Below are positions 22,611 through 30,597 of a stretch of DNA of 64,000 nt, piece by piece. The stretch spans positions 1,984,001 through 2,048,000 of the forward strand of contig CP085323.1 of the NCBI GenBank assembly GCA_022870745.1, written 5' to 3'. Position numbers and translations under genes: made by a program. The notes below the pieces were generated by a model. It was not told the origin of the DNA, ran no database searches, and saw only the letters and a list, made by a program, of their open reading frames with translations. Position 1 is the stretch's first letter. Each line of letters starts with the position of its first letter. Source of the stretch: Silvibacterium acidisoli. Its GTDB lineage: Bacteria > Acidobacteriota > Terriglobia > Terriglobales > Acidobacteriaceae.

Positions 22611-22629
22611 CTGGGGCGCTTTAAGTAGC
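22599..22629. repeat. Tandem 18-bp duplication at a convergent gene border
   Basis: CGCTTTAAGTAGC occurs at 22599-22611 and again at 22617-22629. The first copy holds the stop codon of the small membrane gene (plus) and the second the stop codon of hisA (minus). Confidence 0.8.
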
Positions 22630-23295
22630 CAGCAGCCCAGAGTAAACAGCCATCCCCGCGACCGCATCGACGTCGATGGCATCGAGTGCGTCAATCTCTG
22701 CCTGTTCACGGATTCCGCCTGCCACTATCAGTTGCCGCCGGGTCAGCTTGCGCAAAGCGGAAGCGCGTTCCATGGGAAAGCCCTGCATAGTGCCTTCGGT
22801 ATCGACGTGGGTGTAGAGAAACGCGCCGCAGTAGGGCTCCAGCTGGGCAATTGCCTCTTCAGCCGAGAGGCTGACGTTTTCCTTCCATCCTTTTACGGCG
22901 ATCCTGCCTGCTTTTGTATCAATGCCTGCGACAAACCGGTCGTGGCCGATCGCCTGGGAAATCGACGCAGCAGTGTCGAGATCGACGCCAGATTGCTGAA
23001 ACAGCACCGAACCGAAGATGACGCGCTTCGCGCCAGCATCGAGTAAACCCTGGGCCTGTTCAGGGGTGCGGATGCCGCCACCCACCTGGCAGGGCAGGCG
23101 TTTCGCTATCTGTTCGATCAGAGACCGGTTGTCTCCCTGCCGCATGGCGGCGTCGAGATCGATGAGCTGGACGAGGGGATAAGCGGCGAAGCGGTTGATC
23201 CAGTACTCGAAGTCGTCGAAGGCGAGCTTGAGCTTTTCACCCTGCACGAGCTGGACGATGCGTCCGCCGAGCAGGTCAATAGAGGGAATCAGCAT
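22621..23295 (-). CDS. hisA: Phosphoribosylformimino-5-aminoimidazole carboxamide ribotide isomerase (HisA)
   Basis: Fourth step of histidine synthesis: isomerises ProFAR to PRFAR on a (beta/alpha)8 barrel. The N-terminal catalytic Asp is in [75 protein letters not shown] and [14 protein letters not shown] follow. At 224 residues it is about 20 shorter than usual and ends soon after the last barrel strand ([14 protein letters not shown]), with its stop in a tandem duplication, so the final helix looks trimmed. Last gene of the his operon; overlaps hisF by seven bases. Confidence 0.94.
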
Positions 23296-24059
23296 GGGAG
23301 CCTCATGGGAATGCCGGAGCGTGCGATCTCCTGCTTCAGTGTGCGGGCATCGGAGATGCCGAAGTGGAAGATGCTTGCTGCGAGCGCCGCATCGGCCTTG
23401 CCGGCTGCGAAGACCTCGGCAAAATGTGCTGCATTGCCTGCGCCGCCTGAGGCGATGACGGGAATCTGCACGGCCTCGCTGACCGCGGCGGTGAGCTCGC
23501 AGTCAAAGCCGTTGCGTGTGCCGTCGGAGTCCATCGAGGTCAGCAGGATCTCCCCTGCGCCGCGCTGCTCGGCTTCGCGTGCCCATTCGACGGCATTGCG
23601 CCCGGTGGGCTTGCGGCCCCCGGCAACAAAAACTTCAGCGCTTGCGGGCGACTGGCCTTCACGGCGTGCGTCAATGGCGACGATCACAGCCTGCGCGCCG
23701 AAACGCGATCCGATTTCGTCGATCAGCTCCGGGCGGCGCAGCGCTGCAGAGTTCACGCTTACCTTATCTGCGCCAGCGTCGAAGACCGCCGAGGCATCAT
23801 CGAGTTCACGGATACCGCCGCCAACGGTGAACGGAACGAACAGCTTCTTCGCGGTGCGCTGCACGGTGTCGATCAGGGTTTTGCGTCCTTCGTGCGTCGC
23901 GGTGATGTCGAGCAGGACAATCTCGTCAGCTCCGGCTTCGGCATGGCGAGCGGCCAGTTCTGCCGGATCTCCTGCATCGATGATGTCGACAAACTGTATG
24001 CCCTTCACCACGCGGCCATCGCGAACGTCGAGGCAGGCAATGATTCTTTTCGTCAGCAT
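23289..24059 (-). CDS. hisF: Imidazole glycerol phosphate synthase subunit HisF
   Basis: Cyclase half of IGP synthase; it accepts ammonia from HisH and converts PRFAR to IGP and AICAR. 256 residues with the catalytic Asp of [20 protein letters not shown] at position 11, then [72 protein letters not shown] and [33 protein letters not shown]. It overlaps both hisH (upstream) and hisA (downstream) by seven bases. Confidence 0.97.
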
Positions 24060-24649
24060 GGCAGCTCCACGAAGTTGCGGAGGATTTGCAAGCCTACCGC
24101 GCCGGACTTCTCCGGATGAAACTGCACGCCCATAATGTTCGCGCGCTCCACCCCCGCGGTGAAGTCTCCGGCGTAATTTGTAACTGCTACAGTATCCTGC
24201 GTCACCGGCGCGCGATAGGAGTGGGTGAAATAGACGAAGCTATCGTCCTCCACCCCCGCAAAGAGCTTCGAGCCTTCGCGCACGCGAATCGAGTTCCAGC
24301 CGACATGCGGCACCTTCTCTTCTGTCGCGAAACGCTCGCAGGTGGCGTCGAAGGCTGCAAAGCCCGTTGTTTCCGGAGCTTCAGTGCTGCCTTTAAAGAG
24401 CCATTGCAGACCGACACAGATACCGAGAAACGGCGTTCCCTGGGAAGCCTTTTCTGCGATGGCCGCCTTCATGCCGCTGCTCTCGAGCACCGCCGTTGCC
24501 TGGAAGTGCCCGACGCCTGGAAGCACGATCTTTTCTGCTTTACGCACCACCTCGGGATCTTCGGTCGCGACGGCATCGGCGCCGGCTGCAGCCAGCGCCT
24601 TCATCACCGAAGTGAGATTGCCCGCTTTGTAATCGATGACTGCGATCAC
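24053..24649 (-). CDS. hisH: Imidazole glycerol phosphate synthase glutaminase subunit HisH
   Basis: Class I glutamine amidotransferase that feeds ammonia to HisF. 198 residues: [19 protein letters not shown] at the N terminus, [10 protein letters not shown], the nucleophile elbow [15 protein letters not shown], and the His/Glu pair in VQFHPEKSG near the C terminus. It overlaps hisB by four bases and hisF by seven. Confidence 0.97.
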
Positions 24650-25281
24650 AGCAGGCCTTTCGTGGAGGGCAGCATTTCGCCGAGCTGCTTGTCACGCGAG
24701 CAGGCTACGCGCAGTGCACGTGCGAAGGCTTTGAAGAGCGCTTCGATCTTGTGGTGGTTCGACCGGCCATACATTGTCTTGATATGCACATTTGCACGTG
24801 CGCCCCGTGCAAAACCGTCAAAGAAATCGTCAACAAGCTCCGATTGCAGATCGCCGACGAGACGTGTCTTCACCTTGGTCTTAATGACCGATTCAACGCG
24901 CCCGCTGAGGTCGACGGCGGCGAGTCCAAGCGTTTCGTCCATGGTCATGACGAAGTAGCCGGCACGCCAGATGCCGCGCTTGTCGCCGAGCGCCTTATCG
25001 AAGGCCTCGCCAAGCGCGATGCCGACATCCTCTACCGTGTGGTGCTGGTCCACATCGAGATCGCCCTTGCAGGTGAGCTCAAGATCGAAGGCGCCGTGGC
25101 GCGTGAAGAGCTCAAGCATGTGATCGAAAAAGCGAATGCCTGTAGAGACCTTGTACTTTCCCGAGCCTTCAATGGCCAGCTTCAGTTCGATCTGTGTTTC
25201 AGCGGTCTTGCGGTCGATTGTTGCAGTCCGTTTTGATCCCGTCTCAACGGCTTCTGTTTTTGCTGATTTCTTCTTCTTCAT
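24646..25281 (-). CDS. hisB: Imidazoleglycerol-phosphate dehydratase (HisB, monofunctional)
   Basis: Mn-dependent dehydration of IGP to imidazole-acetol phosphate. From the ATG at 25281 it has 211 residues. This start forms a four-base overlap with the hisC stop and has GGAG seven bases upstream; an in-frame ATG at 25299 is less likely. A Lys-rich N-terminal extension precedes the core ([21 protein letters not shown], metal-ligand [33 protein letters not shown] and the late [17 protein letters not shown]). There is no phosphatase domain, so histidinol phosphatase must be encoded elsewhere. Confidence 0.95.
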
Positions 25282-26372
25282 GCCTGGTCTCCGTTCCATC
25301 CGATTTCGTTGAGCACAGCCTTCATGGCCTCAATGGCCGAGGCTGTCTGTGCCTGCGTGCCGAGCGTGATGCGGACGCAGCCTTCGCATCCGGGATCGCT
25401 CGAGCGGTCGCGTGTGAGTACGCCGCGCGCGCGCATGGCTGCGGCAAATGCTGAGTGCTTTGGGCCGATGCGCGTGAGCAGAAAATTCGCCTGCGAGGGC
25501 CAGTAGGGTACACCCAGATCTGTAAGCGCTGCCGCAAGCTGTTCGCGCGATGCCAGCACCTCGTTGACGTAGTTATTGAGATAATCCTTGTCGTCCATCG
25601 CAGCGGGCAGGCAGGCGAGCGCCAAACCATTCACGCTGTAAGGCGAGATGACGCGGCGCAGCCAGTGCATGGCTTCCTCACCCGCGGCGAGCATGCCGAG
25701 GCGCATATTCGCGAGGCCGTAGGCCTTCGAAAATGTACGCGCGACGATTACATTTGGCACGCGTCCTACCAGGTCGAGAACCGTTTCGCCGTGGAAGTGG
25801 AAATAAGCTTCGTCTACTAACACCATTGCCTGCGGCGCGGCGTCGATGATGCGCAGAATGTCTTCGCGTTTTACCGCCTTGCCAGTCGGACTGTTGGGGT
25901 TGGCGATGGCGATGACTCGCGTGGCCGGGCGAATCCTGCGGAGGATCGCTTCTACTGGAAATTCGAAGCCGTCCTCGGCAAGTACTTCAACAAGTGTTGC
26001 AGGTGTTGCCGATGCATAGACCGCGTACATGGAGTACGTGGGCACGGGCAGCAGCATCTCGGTGTCCTGCTCGAGATAGGTCTGGCACAGGACGTGAATC
26101 GCTTCGTCGACGCCGTTCGTCAGCAGCACCTGCTCCGGTGCCAGGCCAAGATGCGAAGCAACCACCGCTTCGGCGCTGCCGCGCTCGGGATAGACCGTCA
26201 GCTGCGCGCCGGAGATCTTCCCCAATACTTCGAGTACGCGCGGCGAGCAGGAGACGGTGTTCTCGTTGAAGTCGAGACGCAGCCCGCTGCGGTCTCCGAG
26301 CGGCGGATGGTATTCCTTCATGCGCTGGACAACGGAAGTCGGCACAGGGCCGCTGGCGATGATGTCACTCAT
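25278..26372 (-). CDS. hisC: Histidinol-phosphate aminotransferase (HisC)
   Basis: PLP-dependent transamination of imidazole-acetol phosphate with glutamate. 364 residues of fold type [15 protein letters not shown] at the start, [42 protein letters not shown], and the PLP lysine in [21 protein letters not shown]. It overlaps hisD by eight bases and hisB by four. Confidence 0.95.
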
Positions 26373-27630
26373 AGCGGCTCCTGACCCTGATTGCCTCGGC
26401 GTGCCCGGTTAGTCCCTCGGCTTCCGCCAGCTCGATGGCAAGAGGTGCGAGGCGCTTCAATCCCTGCGCGTCATACTGCTGCACGGTGATGAGCTTTAGA
26501 AAGTCCATGACGCTCAGACCGCCGCGAACGCGGGCGATGCCGCCGGTAGGCAGCGTGTGGTTTGGGCCGGAGATGTAGTCGCCCAGTGGCTGGGCCGATT
26601 CATTGCCGATAAAGATCGAGCCTGCATTCTGCACCCAGGCAAGATCGGCATCGCTATCGACGGTGAGATGTTCGGGTGCGAGCGCATTGGTAATCTCGCG
26701 TGCCTCTTCGACGGACTCCGTAACAATGGCGAAGCCGTTGTTGCGAATGGCCTGCGCGGCAATCCTGTTGGTACGCACACGGAGTTTGACGTCGGCAACG
26801 ACTAATTTGGCTAATGCTTCGTTCGTGGTTACGAATACGGCGAAGGCATCGGGATCGTGCTCGGCCTGTGCGATGAGATCGGAAGCGATTGCTTCGACAT
26901 CGCCGGTCTCGCTGGTGACGACGATCTCGGTTGGGCCTGCCAGCATGTCGATGGAGCAGTCGAAGGCGACCAGGCTCTTGGCTGCGGTGACATACGCATT
27001 GCCGGGCCCGACGATCTTGTCCACTTTTGCAATCGTGGCGGTGCCATAAGCGAGAGCCGCTACACCCTGCGCTCCGCCGGTTCGGTAGAACTCGGTGACG
27101 CCGAGCATATGCGCCGCTGCAAGCGTCTCAGGCGCAGGCTTCGGGGAGATGACGACGATCCTGGGAACGCCTGCGACCTGTGCGGGCACTACCGTCATAA
27201 GTAGCGTCGAAGGCAGCGGATAGCGGCCGCTGGGAACATAGCAGCCGACTGCTCCCAGTGGACGCACCTGCTGGCCTACGGTAAGGCCGGGAACCGGCGA
27301 GAAGCTGAAGTCGCGCGGGCGCTGCTTTGTCGCAAAGGCTCGGATATTCTTCTCGGCCTGCTTCAATGCCTGCTTCAGGCTGGGCGAAGCCGCATCCCAC
27401 GCGGCCTTCATTTCTTCTGTAGAGATCTGTAACGGTGTCTGTTGCGAGAGACCATCAAACTGCTTGCCGTAGCGGCGCAGGGCGGCATCGCCACCCTTAC
27501 GCACGCTCTCGACGATCTTGCGGGCAGCGGGCACGGCGCGCATGTAGGCATCGCTGCGCCTTGCTACCAGCGTTGCGATGCGCTCCCGCGCTGCCTTTGC
27601 TCCGCGACCTTTTGTGGAGATGAGCTTCAT
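26365..27630 (-). CDS. hisD: Histidinol dehydrogenase (HisD)
   Basis: Zn-dependent, two-step oxidation of histidinol to histidine with two NAD+. From the ATG at 27630, two bases after the hisG stop, the protein has 421 residues. The frame is open back to 27750 inside hisG but that part is not HisD-like. Signatures: VPSGRYPLPSTLLMTVVPAQVAGV, EFYRTGGAQGVAALAYGTATI, KIVGPGNAYVTAAK, DMLAGPTEIVV, SDLIAQAEHDPDA and NHTLPTGGIARVRGGLSVMDFLK. Confidence 0.96.
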   Translation of the reverse strand: MKLISTKGRGAKAARERIATLVARRSDAYMRAVPAARKIVESVRKGGDAALRRYGKQFDGLSQQTPLQISTEEMKAAWDAASPSLKQALKQAEKNIRAFATKQRPRDFSFSPVPGLTVGQQVRPLGAVGCYVPSGRYPLPSTLLMTVVPAQVAGVPRIVVISPKPAPETLAAAHMLGVTEFYRTGGAQGVAALAYGTATIAKVDKIVGPGNAYVTAAKSLVAFDCSIDMLAGPTEIVVTSETGDVEAIASDLIAQAEHDPDAFAVFVTTNEALAKLVVADVKLRVRTNRIAAQAIRNNGFAIVTESVEEAREITNALAPEHLTVDSDADLAWVQNAGSIFIGNESAQPLGDYISGPNHTLPTGGIARVRGGLSVMDFLKLITVQQYDAQGLKRLAPLAIELAEAEGLTGHAEAIRVRSRYE

Positions 27631-27632
27631 GC

Positions 27633-28508
27633 TTACAGCACCACCTTGTTCAGCGGGTATTCGACGATACCGGTCGCACCCGACGATTTGAGTTTCGGAA
27701 TCACCTCGCGCACGACGCCTTCTTCCAGAATCGTACTGACAGCAACCCACTTTTCATCGGAGAGATTGGAGACCGTCGGCGAATTCAGCGCAGGCAGCAC
27801 GCCGAGGATAGCGGGCAGGTTGGCCTTCTCGACGTTCATCATCAGGCCGACGCGGCCTTGTGCATCGATAGCGGCGTTGAGCATCAGCGCGATGTTGTCT
27901 ATCTTCTGCTTCTTCCAGGCTTCGTTGTACGCGGCGGGATTGGCGATGAGATGCGTCTCGCTCTCCATCAGCGTTTCAATGATGCGCAGGCGGTTGGCGC
28001 GCAGCGAGCTGCCGGTCTCCGTTACTTCCACGATCGCGTCGGCCAGCATGGGAGGCTTCACTTCCGTTGCGCCCCAGCTGAATTCAACCTTCACGTTTAC
28101 GCCTTTTTTCTCGAAGTAGCGCTTTGAAACTTCAACGAGCTCAGTGGCGATGACCTTGCCTTCGAGGTCTTCTGCCTTCTGGTAGGGCGAGTCTTCGGGA
28201 ACGGCAAGCACCCACTTCACCTTTTGGCGGCTTTGCTTGGAGTAGACGAGGCTGGTCACGCTGGTGACGTCGAGCGCATTTTCAACGACCCAGTCGATAC
28301 CGGTAAGTCCGGCGTCGAGCACGCCCTTGGCAACGTAGCGCGCCATCTCCTGCGCGCGGATCAGCATGCATTCGATTTCGGTGTCGTCGATCGAAGGAAA
28401 GTAGGAGCGGCCGTTGGCATAAATGCGCCAGCCTGCGCGCTCAAACAATGCGATGGTGGCGTCCTGCAGGCTGCCTTTGGGAATTCCGAGACGAAGTTTA
28501 TTTGGCAT
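27633..28508 (-). CDS. hisG: ATP phosphoribosyltransferase (HisG, long form)
   Basis: First and committed step of histidine synthesis, joining ATP and PRPP, normally inhibited by histidine. 291 residues puts it in the long, homohexameric class with a C-terminal regulatory ACT-like domain. Markers are [87 protein letters not shown] and the C-terminal [12 protein letters not shown]. It overlaps hisI by 11 bases. No hisZ is needed for this form. Confidence 0.95.
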
Positions 28509-28860
28509 CGGCCACCTCCACGGGGATGGGGCGGGTGAAGCAGCTCACTGTGCCTTCGTGGCAGACGAGGCCATCGCCGTCGACGGTGACGCGGAAGAGC
28601 AGCGTGTCGCGGTCGCAGTCGGTCGATACATCGACGATGCGCAGGCGGTTGCCGCTGGTTTCGCCTTTCATCCACAGCTTCTGGCGGGTGCGGCTCCAGA
28701 AGGTGACAAAGCCGCTTTCGAGGGTCTTTTTGTAACTCTGATCGTTGAGAAAGCCGACCATCAGAACCTGTCCGGTGTTTACGTCCTGAACGATGCCCGG
28801 GACGAGGCCGTCCATCTTCTCAAAATCGATTGCCGTAGCGTCTGTCGTTGTCTCTGTCAT
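28498..28860 (-). CDS. hisI: Phosphoribosyl-AMP cyclohydrolase (HisI)
   Basis: Zn/Mg-dependent opening of the purine ring of PR-AMP. 120 residues, monofunctional: there is no HisE domain, and no hisE in this operon. Key motifs are [22 protein letters not shown], the metal-ligand region [15 protein letters not shown] and [12 protein letters not shown]. It is the first structural gene; AAGGA lies just before the ATG, and the attenuator terminator ends 34 bases upstream. Confidence 0.95.
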
Positions 28861-28893
28861 GTTCCTTCAGTCCTGTGATTTGCTGTGCCAACG

Positions 28894-28930
28894 CAAAAAG
28901 CCCGCCGGGGCTGTGCGCGCCGGCGGGCTT
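28894..28930 (-). terminator. Attenuator terminator of the his operon
   Basis: On the minus strand an 11-bp stem AAGCCCGCCGG / CCGGCGGGCTT with an 11-base loop is followed at once by a T run. It lies between the His-rich leader peptide and hisI, so it must be read through for his expression, the layout of a translation-controlled attenuator. The nonamer ATCACAGGA is present (minus strand) both before (28950-28942) and after (28879-28871) the hairpin. Confidence 0.85.
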
Positions 28931-28957
28931 TGGTTTCTGATCCTGTGATGTGGGCTT

Positions 28958-29038
28958 TTAGATCAAGCCAGACAGGTCCGCCGACACGCTCGTCACGTGA
29001 TGATGGTGGTGATGACGATGGTGAAGATGAACCTGCAT
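28958..29038 (-). CDS. hisL: Histidine operon leader peptide (His-rich)
   Basis: A 26-codon open frame on the minus strand starting with ATG at 29038 and ending TAA at 28958. Nine of the first fourteen residues are histidine: MQVHLHHRHHHHHH, then an ordinary tail VTSVSADLSGLI. It ends 28 bases before an intrinsic terminator that precedes hisI. Stalling at His codons when charged tRNA-His is scarce would be expected to favour an antiterminator. There is no Shine-Dalgarno; the predicted transcript starts about three bases before the ATG. The similarity to the enterobacterial his leader is in design, not sequence. Confidence 0.85.
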   Translation of the reverse strand: MQVHLHHRHHHHHHVTSVSADLSGLI

Positions 29039-29047
29039 CTGATTGAA

Positions 29048-29077
29048 AAGCTAAACGCCGCGCGAACCACATGTCAA
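29048..29077 (-). promoter_or_regulatory. Predicted sigma-70 promoter of the his operon
   Basis: On the minus strand, TTGACA (29077-29072) is a perfect -35 box, followed after 18 bases by a weaker -10 TAGCTT (29053-29048). The start point would be near 29041, three bases before the leader-peptide ATG. It lies right after the stop of the histidine-kinase gene. Confidence 0.6.
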
Positions 29078-29097: not shown

Positions 29098-30597
29098 TCA
29101 TTCTTTTACCGCGTCCGCGATTACTTCGGCGAGCTCATGAAGCGCGAACGGCTTTTCGAGGTGCCTTCCAGGCAGCGTGCCGGCTTCCTGTCCGGCATCA
29201 GGATGGCCGGAGATGAAGATCACCTTGGAGTCCGGATGAAGCATCAGCAGCTGCTCGACGAGCGTTCCGCCGGGAAGGTCAGGCAGGACCAGATCGACGA
29301 GCATCAGGTCTACGCGGCTCCGTTCGCCGGCAGCCCACTTCAGGGCGGCTTCAGCGTTGCCGCAGGAAACCACATCGTAGCCGCGGCCGCTTAGGAACTG
29401 CTCCATCATGCGGCGCAATTCGAGCGAATCTTCTACCAGCAGGATGTGTGTGCTTTTCTCCTGCGCCGACAGTTCCAGTGTCGTGGGAGGGATAAATATC
29501 TCGATGCAGGTGCCTACGCCGGGCTCGCTCTTCAGGCGCACGGCTCCTCCGCATTGCTGCACTGCGGCCGCAACCGAGGCGAGTCCGAGGCCGCTGTTCA
29601 TGTTGCGCGATTTCGTTGAATAGTATGGCTTGAATGCCTGCCGGCGTGTTTCCTCGCTCATGCCGTGCCCGGTATCTTCAACCGTAAGACGTACATATTT
29701 GCCGGGAGCGAGTTCCAGGTCCGCGTCTGCTGAGCCAACTGTAGCCTGCGATGTTGTGACCTTAAGCGTTCCGCCCTCGGGCATGGCGTCGCGCGCGTTC
29801 ACGGCAAGATTGAGCATGACTTCGCGCCACTGCTCGGTATCGCTGAAGATGGGCGGCAGCAAGGGCTCGAACTGCATTACCAGTTCGGACTGCTTACCGA
29901 GCAGTCCTTTCAGGATGTCTTCCTGTTCGCGCAGAACGGTATTCAGGTCGAGCCGCTCATTGTGCGACATCTGCCGGCCACCGAGACTCAACCGTTGCTT
30001 GGCCATCTCCTGCGCGCTGCGTACCGTCTTCGCGATCAGGCCGACCTGGTGTTGAGGATTGCCTTCACCTTCCTGCAGCTGCTCCGCGACTGCAAGGATG
30101 ACCGTGAGCAGGTTGTTGAAGTCATGAGCCGCCGCTCCGGAAACGCGTTCGCCGGTTATCTTTCCAATGGCCGATTGCGCGGCAGACCGCGGCGTGATGT
30201 CGCGAACCAGGAAAAAGCGTGCTGGCCGCTGATTCCATGCGAGTGCGAACGACCGCACCTCGACAGGCATGAGGGTGCGATCGGGCAGGATGTGTTCGGA
30301 GAAGAAATCCTGGGGCGGTGCATCCAGCCCGGCGTCGAGCAGGCGAGTGAGGTCGGCGCGACGGTGGGGCGGCACGGCGCGTTCGACGCCCTCCGCCCTG
30401 AGCGTTTCCAGATCCATCTGGTACGTGCGAGTTGCCGCGGGATTGGCTTCGATAACCCGGTGCGTTTCGCAGTCGAGCACAAACATTGGCCATGGCGAAA
30501 GCTCAATCAGTGACCGGCACATCTCTGCCGGCCAGCCAACAGCGTTTTCCCCAGGCTGCAGCTCTGGGTGTTCCGAAGTACGGATGTTGGTGCTCAT
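29098..30597 (-). CDS. Hybrid sensor histidine kinase (PAS - HisKA - HATPase - receiver)
   Basis: A cytoplasmic signalling protein of 499 residues with no membrane helix. A PAS-like sensor (~25-135, MCRSLIELSPWPMFVLDCETHRVIEAN) is followed by the H-box AAHDFNNLLTVI with His158, and the ATP lid with N-box NLAVNARDAMP (264-273), G1 DTGHGM (308-313) and G2 GLGLA (336-340). A C-terminal receiver starts with HILLVED at 384, with phospho-acceptor Asp435 (LMLVDLVLPD) and Lys482 (LEKPF). The HDFNN-type H-box groups it with kinases that often lack a paired regulator gene, and none is adjacent. The signal and target are unknown. Confidence 0.9.
   Translation of the reverse strand: MSTNIRTSEHPELQPGENAVGWPAEMCRSLIELSPWPMFVLDCETHRVIEANPAATRTYQMDLETLRAEGVERAVPPHRRADLTRLLDAGLDAPPQDFFSEHILPDRTLMPVEVRSFALAWNQRPARFFLVRDITPRSAAQSAIGKITGERVSGAAAHDFNNLLTVILAVAEQLQEGEGNPQHQVGLIAKTVRSAQEMAKQRLSLGGRQMSHNERLDLNTVLREQEDILKGLLGKQSELVMQFEPLLPPIFSDTEQWREVMLNLAVNARDAMPEGGTLKVTTSQATVGSADADLELAPGKYVRLTVEDTGHGMSEETRRQAFKPYYSTKSRNMNSGLGLASVAAAVQQCGGAVRLKSEPGVGTCIEIFIPPTTLELSAQEKSTHILLVEDSLELRRMMEQFLSGRGYDVVSCGNAEAALKWAAGERSRVDLMLVDLVLPDLPGGTLVEQLLMLHPDSKVIFISGHPDAGQEAGTLPGRHLEKPFALHELAEVIADAVKE

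Follow-up and report, generated by a model that had tools for sequence, protein, structure and literature searches.

The his operon of Silvibacterium acidisoli (class Terriglobia, phylum Acidobacteriota) is very probably controlled by a ribosome-mediated transcription attenuator, as judged from the arrangement of its leader in a window of 64,000 nucleotides, which is the whole stretch of DNA that was analysed and to which all coordinates refer. The parts of this attenuator follow one another as TTGACA, TAGCTT, leader ORF, terminator and hisI, and then hisGDCBHFA down to position 22621. All of them, and every other feature located below, are on the minus strand, which an earlier sequence-only reading of this DNA had left unstated. 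That reading had proposed translation-coupled attenuation as the control of hisIGDCBHFA, a proposal that gains support from the conservation of the His run, the terminator, a conserved and mutually exclusive antiterminator and the position of hisI as the first gene.

The his gene calls rest on NCBIfam. The first structural gene is hisI (phosphoribosyl-AMP cyclohydrolase, 28498-28860), with 133.4 bits for NF000768 at a cut-off of 126. It is followed by hisG (27633-28508), the long form of ATP phosphoribosyltransferase, over the cut-offs of TIGR00070 and TIGR03455; hisD (26365-27630), over the cut-off of TIGR00069, with an inner ATG chosen by eye in a frame open from 27750; and hisC (25278-26372), with 277 bits for TIGR01141 at a cut-off of 276.55. 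The genes hisB (24646-25299, NF002111), hisH (24053-24649, TIGR01855) and hisF (23289-24059, TIGR00735) are also over their cut-offs. The last his gene of the cluster is hisA (22621-23295), where the best model, TIGR00007, gave 160.8 bits, below its cut-off of 228.95. On the other side of the leader, some 20 nt separate the his -35 from the end of a hybrid sensor histidine kinase/response regulator-like gene (29098-30597), for which none of the 25 NCBIfam models shown reached its cut-off.

The leader ORF (MQVHLHHRHHHHHHVTSVSADLSGLI, 28958-29038) is an ATG frame of 26 codons with His at codons 4, 6, 7 and 9-14, that is, nine in the first fourteen and six consecutive. This frame was described correctly in the sequence-only reading, whose coordinates for the region are also right. 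The proposed sensor is the run of nine His codons in eleven (28997-29029); in much of the family the amino acids of the tail that follows it are conserved (VSAE, VSAD and similar). Among 150 sampled genomes of the window's family hisI is present in 111, and loci were fetched from 106 of them, one per genome, five being left out with a hisI match broken up or at a contig edge. A His-rich short ORF precedes hisI in 105 of the 106 loci, the exception (L054) having only 33 nt of upstream sequence. With the criterion of a short ORF containing at least 4 His in 10 residues in the 300 nt before hisI, such an ORF is present in all 105 loci whose upstream sequence is long enough, against 1 of 105 antisense controls and 1 of 315 shuffles; with at least 5 His in 10 the counts are 105/105, 0/105 and 0/315. 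The conservation of the His run plus terminator in relatives, which had been suggested as a check, came out strongly: it was found in these loci, in the terminator core present in all 105 aligned rows and in the His-rich leaders that precede his operons in other classes of this phylum. The family also comprises genomes with no hisI match (39 of the 150 and 28 of the 109 high-quality ones, for example G001, G004, G007, G010 and G011). In 20 of these 39 a search for hisG gave no match in 19 and one match of 43 residues. Histidine auxotrophy may be common in this family.

The -35 hexamer TTGACA (29072-29077) can be read directly in the sequence, just upstream of the leader as had been noticed before. 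After a spacer of 18 nt comes the -10-like hexamer TAGCTT (29048-29053), which ends 9 nt before the leader ATG and is a weak match to TATAAT; a generic promoter scan of the window reported no sigma-70 site at the leader. In the relatives, TTGACN and a -10-like hexamer followed by an ATG in the His frame were identified in 99 of 105 loci, with TTGACA in 78 of those 99, and a promoter score of at least 9 was obtained in 92 of 105 family loci and in 5.9% of shuffles. To choose the -10, the quality of its match and its distance from the -35 were used, and the search covered the 110 nt ahead of the His run. The leader ORF is predicted to be leaderless because the first in-frame ATG lies 6-14 nt past the -10 in 95 of 99 family loci, a count in which short distances are favoured, since the first ATG after the -10 was taken. 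As a general rule transcription starts about 7 nt after the -10, and under this assumption the predicted 5' UTR is 0-8 nt long. An SD-like tetramer is found ahead of the leader ATG in 5 of 99 loci and near the estimated hisI starts in 48 of 105. Of 45 loci in other families, 10 have no promoter match and 35 have one if weak matches are counted; in 30 of these 35 the ATG lies 8-15 nt past the -10. Read-through from the kinase gene would give a leader RNA that is not leaderless. Leaderless genes have been estimated at 9.7-19.4% in three acidobacterial genomes, according to the available part of the source (PMC3160421).

The intrinsic terminator (strand 3:4) and its U-run occupy 28895-28931, with the 5' arm at 28920-28931 and the 3' arm at 28897-28908, followed by T. 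An intrinsic terminator between the leader and hisI had already been recognised, and this part of the earlier description stands; its figures have to be changed, as the stem has 12 bp with A-U pairs counted (not 11), begins 26 nt past the leader stop (not 28) and ends 36 nt before the hisI ATG (not 34). A generic terminator scan gave a poorer register, a sub-stem of 5 pairs only, which direct inspection of the sequence and the comparison with relatives replaced. Three helices were counted in an alignment (A1) of 105 leaders. Of the terminator cells 91.7% are paired in it, with 81 double-change cells against 35.4 in shuffles. At least five T within 8 nt past the hairpin were counted in 77 of 105 loci, the hairpin being the one picked by a script, which in a few loci chose another than the aligned terminator.

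The antiterminator is formed by the codons after the His run (GUGUCGGCGG), which pair with the terminator 5' arm and the first bases of its loop. Its 5' strand (strand 2, GCGUGUCGGCGG, 28978-28989) lies inside the leader ORF, in the codons Ser-Val-Ser-Ala-Asp, and its 3' strand (strand 3, CCGCCGGCGCGC, 28915-28926) overlaps the 5' arm and loop of the terminator. In A1 90.7% of its cells are paired, against 26.2-45.2% after a slide of 1-3 columns; double-change cells number 42 (8.9 in shuffles) and pairs with double changes five (2.6 in shuffles). Where column 39 has C, in a Pro codon, column 153 has G in 16 of the 19 rows with letters in both columns; where it has U, in a Ser codon, column 153 has A in 60 of 73 rows. 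An antiterminator, which the earlier reading had proposed to look for by folding, is in this way identified; it is conserved and excludes the terminator. The third helix, the putative P1 hairpin (strand 1:2, CACG..CGUG, 28985-28999), joins the last His codon, CAC, to the GUG 12 nt downstream. Across A1 (last His codon with GUG or AUG 12 nt on) 73.9% of P1 cells are paired, with 44 double-change cells against 18.6 in shuffles, and its folding probability exceeds 0.5 in only 18 of 105 loci. Because four antiterminator columns are also P1 columns and the other side of the antiterminator is the terminator arm, the three helices would be the classic 1:2, 2:3 and 3:4 set, in the terminology of the trp attenuator. 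RNAalifold on the whole alignment predicts the outer six terminator pairs only; it cannot show two exclusive folds, and therefore the named structures were counted instead.

Few of the changes are independent on the tree of HisI plus HisG, so that the double-change cells count inherited changes many times. In a tree-aware covariation analysis of the 105 rows, given as same-way/other-way changes in independent locus pairs, three antiterminator pairs have values of 2.0/0.0, 0.8/0.3 and 0.6/0.3, two P1 pairs of 5.2/0.1 and 2.6/0.1, and two terminator pairs of 2.3/0.0 and 1.8/0.0. Their direction is right; the independent events are too few, with no median p below 0.05. Two further lines of evidence, the 45-locus tail test and the reading frame, do not rest on the 105-row alignment. 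In the 45 loci of other families the complementarity of the tail to the terminator beats its own shuffles at p<=0.05 in 26 and does not in 19. Among the tails of the other loci the own tail has a mean rank of about 0.31, where chance is 0.5. The specificity of the pairing for its own locus is thus only moderate, which a strand-2 word common to many loci would lead one to expect.

The strand-2 word is kept as RNA in different reading frames. Its frame relative to the His codons differs in 7 of the 105 rows (L006, L020, L021, L028, L052, L074 and L087). Among the 52 family loci with the word UGYCNGYGG it is read as VSAE or alike in 48, as CRR in 3 and as RVSG in 1; in the 19 loci of other families with this word it is read as CQR, CPRR and similar in 18 and as VSA in 1. 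Loci without the exact word (53 of 105 in the family and 26 of 45 in other families) are outside these counts. The simplest reason would be that in strand 2 the RNA is conserved and not the peptide, the word being kept because it has to pair with the terminator.

The sequence-only reading had also suggested that a nonamer (ATCACAGGA) on both sides of the terminator takes part in an alternative fold, a suggestion that is not upheld. Copy 1 (28941-28949) contains ACAGG (28942-28946), which can pair with CCUGU of the leader ORF (28972-28976) and extend the antiterminator; in the fold of the window's own sequence this pairing forms inside the antiterminator loop. Copy 2 (28871-28879), before hisI, is probably due to chance and is missing from the three other loci of the same genus that were fetched (L003, L004 and L048). 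The inner helix, between the codons after strand 2 and the stretch before the terminator, is weakly better than chance across relatives, with a mean own score of 11.65 against 10.55 (sd 0.22) for random locus pairing. Its combined shuffle p is 0.02, its median own-shuffle p is 0.42 and p<=0.05 is reached in 8 of 105 loci. Support for this helix was rated weak because relatedness could explain the excess, and the main antiterminator is formed by other segments.

The sequence itself shows the leader ORF and the terminator, pairings that exclude each other, and the conservation and spacing of these parts; from them we infer where transcription starts, leaderless translation, stalling and the response to histidine. 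RNA polymerase would start a few nt ahead of the leader ATG, and a ribosome would load at or near the 5' end of the RNA by leaderless initiation. With scarce charged tRNA-His this ribosome would stall on the His codons and leave strand 2 free to pair with strand 3, the terminator 5' arm; the terminator would then come too late and hisIGDCBHFA would be transcribed. With plentiful histidine the ribosome would pass through strand 2 toward the stop codon, 3:4 pairing would follow and transcription would end before hisI. P1, formed by the last His codon or codons with strand 2, may hold strand 2 when no ribosome is stalled, or may pause the polymerase. In 96 of 105 loci 12 nt separate the last His codon from the strand-2 GUG, which is then just outside a ribosome stalled on that codon, and because of this distance strand 2 would be free with a ribosome stalled on any of the His codons. 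From the stop codon to the terminator there are 20-30 nt in 91 of 105 loci, which is beyond the reach of a terminating ribosome.

When the 105 leaders are folded up to the terminator 3' arm, the antiterminator has a median probability of 0.81 if a ribosome occupies the last His codon and of 0.00 if it is at the stop. The decrease is larger than 0.3 in 55 of 105 loci and the reverse was seen in 1. The on and off states are not separated by static folding of the window's own leader, where the antiterminator probability is 0.93 on the last His codon and, at the stop, 0.89 with an upstream footprint of 18 nt or 0.52 with one of 21 nt (0.90 and 0.91 by the measure used for all loci). The two states hardly differ in this leader because strand 2 ends 18 nt before the stop and is barely covered by a ribosome there. 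This distance is at least 18 nt in 46 of 105 loci. With strand 2 uncovered at the stop, the off state must rest on timing, that is, on a ribosome being over strand 2 while strand 3 is made. If the full leader is folded to equilibrium, the terminator results whether a ribosome is present or not; such folding therefore cannot represent the switch, and information comes only from the fold that precedes the 3' arm. In that fold and with no ribosome, the antiterminator forms in the window's leader and exceeds a probability of 0.5 in 53 of 105 loci; untranslated leaders of this sort are therefore predicted to read through. The opposite of this predicted default-ON state, super-attenuation, has been described in enterobacteria.

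If the ribosome on the leader governed access to the ribosome-binding site of hisI and not transcription, the element would be a translation attenuator. This mechanism is known for some amino-acid leaders (in the available text of PMC9413887), and some relatives have the 3' arm only a few nt away from where hisI is estimated to start. In the window, however, the hairpin ends 36 nt before the hisI ATG with a free GAAGGA between them, and the T-runs of at least five in 8 nt after 77 of the 105 script-picked hairpins would not be needed by a hairpin that hides a start site; translation attenuation is accordingly judged very unlikely. The peptide itself could act, either as an arrest peptide or as a His-rich, metal-binding micropeptide placed by chance before hisI, and the conserved VSAE/VSAD tail agrees with this. 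Yet the RNA of this tail is kept in other frames in other families and in L021, L028, L074 and L087, it pairs with the terminator, the place before the his operon is constant, and no second convincing copy was found in the genome with a covariance model of P1 plus terminator (R1). An acting peptide is thus even less probable than translation attenuation.

Two explanations without a ribosome-mediated switch have an almost negligible probability each. The hairpin could be a constitutive terminator of the kinase gene, with a chance His run and no regulation, and this gene is indeed on the same strand and close to the -35; such a reading is contradicted by the conservation of the parts in 105 loci with controls. 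The ORF could also be incidental to a T-box or another histidine or tRNA riboswitch, since his genes are under T-box control in Firmicutes (available text of PMC9413887), but no Rfam family reached its gathering score anywhere in the window and the predicted 5' UTR ahead of the ORF has only a few nt.

The spread of the element was surveyed with R1, whose model includes many genomes of the family. In the window's genome the his leader was found at E 6.5e-19 and the next best match at 0.097. In the class, 114 of 151 genomes have a match at E<=0.1, and for 96 of these E is no higher than 4.3e-4. The neighbourhood was viewed for 57 of the 96 (30 returned by the search and 27 fetched) and all 57 are before hisI. 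Among the 40 class loci fetched, 30 are before hisI and 10 elsewhere, the latter all at E of at least 0.0014, as are three class loci at his operons (L243, L253 and L255). In the phylum, 39 of 199 genomes have a match at E<=0.01, and the 20 loci fetched outside the class comprise 9 before hisI, 2 before hisG, 1 cut by a contig end and 8 with no his gene. False matches at E<=0.1 were obtained in 6 of 20 family genomes lacking hisI, two of them at 8e-5. The latter (L287 and L288, from genomes with no hisI or hisG match) were rejected as his leaders, being ordinary terminators behind coding genes. Because of these two and of the ten class loci away from his operons, R1 matches between E 8e-5 and 0.1 are not trustworthy alone. 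L255 and L262, from the same class, are R1 matches before hisI with TTGACA and a terminator-like sequence, and with no short ORF that passes the His criterion.

A sample not chosen by R1 comprises the regions upstream of hisG in 56 of the 108 non-family genomes with a hisG match, mostly the better matches. In 35 of the 53 regions long enough, a short ORF with at least 4 His in 10 was identified within 620 nt, against 0 of 53 antisense controls and 3 of 159 shuffles; it is absent in the other 18 of these 53 his operons. Eight genomes of family f38 (L313-L320) have no His-rich ORF within 1,300 nt of hisG, and a more distant leader ahead of another first gene is possible. In family f31 (L338-L346) a His-rich short ORF lies 76-108 nt before hisG in 9 of 9, and two of these loci (L341 and L342) have a different type of terminator (GACGACGC..GCGTCGTTTTTT), which may reflect a separate origin of His leaders within the phylum. 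In family f27, from another class, two His-rich short ORFs were identified in series before hisG, each with its own intrinsic terminator (L321, L322, L323 and L325; 4 of 4 genomes from two genera), and TTGACA is seen before the first. Apparently these are two His attenuators in tandem behind one promoter. A broader and distinctly tentative reading is that of an old and widespread family of leaderless his attenuators in Acidobacteriota, where the antiterminator strand would be a conserved RNA word in the leader ORF with a frame varying by family, loss of leader translation would leave the operon ON and f27 would carry the element in tandem.

Ribosome-mediated his attenuation in enterobacteria is textbook knowledge; hisG is there the first gene of the operon and the switching segments of the leader are mostly behind the ORF. 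The element of the window resembles the enterobacterial HisL/his attenuator (RF00514) in its His-codon run in a short ORF, its alternative folds and its intrinsic terminator before the his operon, with the same inferred logic. It differs in that hisI is the first gene, the antiterminator strand is inside the ORF and the leader is predicted to be leaderless. The RF00514 His_leader model gave 24.9 bits (E 0.16) at the locus, where the gathering cut-off is 49. Polycysteine leaders in mycobacteria are reportedly leaderless amino-acid attenuators as well. For trpL of Sinorhizobium meliloti the RNA begins with ATG, according to the portion available of PMC7298713. These two share with the window a leader ORF at the 5' end of the RNA; they belong to other amino acids and phyla, and in the window the leaderless start is only predicted, from promoter spacing. 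In the ilvB1 attenuator of Mycobacterium tuberculosis a ribosome at the stop codon has been proposed to mask the antiterminator strand and so favour the terminator (accessible part of PMC13236596), which is the logic proposed here, whereas ilvB1 concerns branched-chain amino acids and has a leader of 166 nt.

His leaders are also described in Firmicutes. The available text of PMC9413887 reports His-leader attenuators in three lineages, with three to five His codons in a row, terminator and antiterminator, and that of PMC2965389 reports a His leader for hisS/hisZ in bacilli and no sequence similarity between the His leaders of Firmicutes and Proteobacteria. A His-rich leader peptide and a terminator are common to these leaders and the window, as is the antiterminator in the case of PMC9413887; compared with the latter, the window has six His in a row and nine in all, and a strand-2 word common to families across one phylum. 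For Acidobacteria, the portion available of PMC2965389 leaves nearly all predicted attenuators with no associated function, that of PMC4833913 mentions the phylum for leader-gene spacing, and those of PMC9413887 and PMC3766115 do not mention it. In one full-text search, mostly of non-subscription papers, the matches listed were general acidobacterial papers with neither leader peptide nor attenuator among their words; the 2010 Lopatovskaya survey could contain examples. The element is best read as a known mechanism in a new sequence family, which has its strand-2 word within the ORF and a start predicted to be leaderless, and which is widely spread in one phylum.

The window provides an attenuator of Acidobacteria whose pathway is clear, whose switch is conserved and which occurs widely in the phylum. 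Natural variation in the frame of the antiterminator word separates selection at the RNA level from selection at the peptide level. Testable predictions on the loading and timing of ribosomes on a very short leader follow from the start being predicted as leaderless and from the apparent tandem arrangement. For the organism, the leader, its foldable RNA and the terminator would most likely switch on the his genes only when histidine is scarce.
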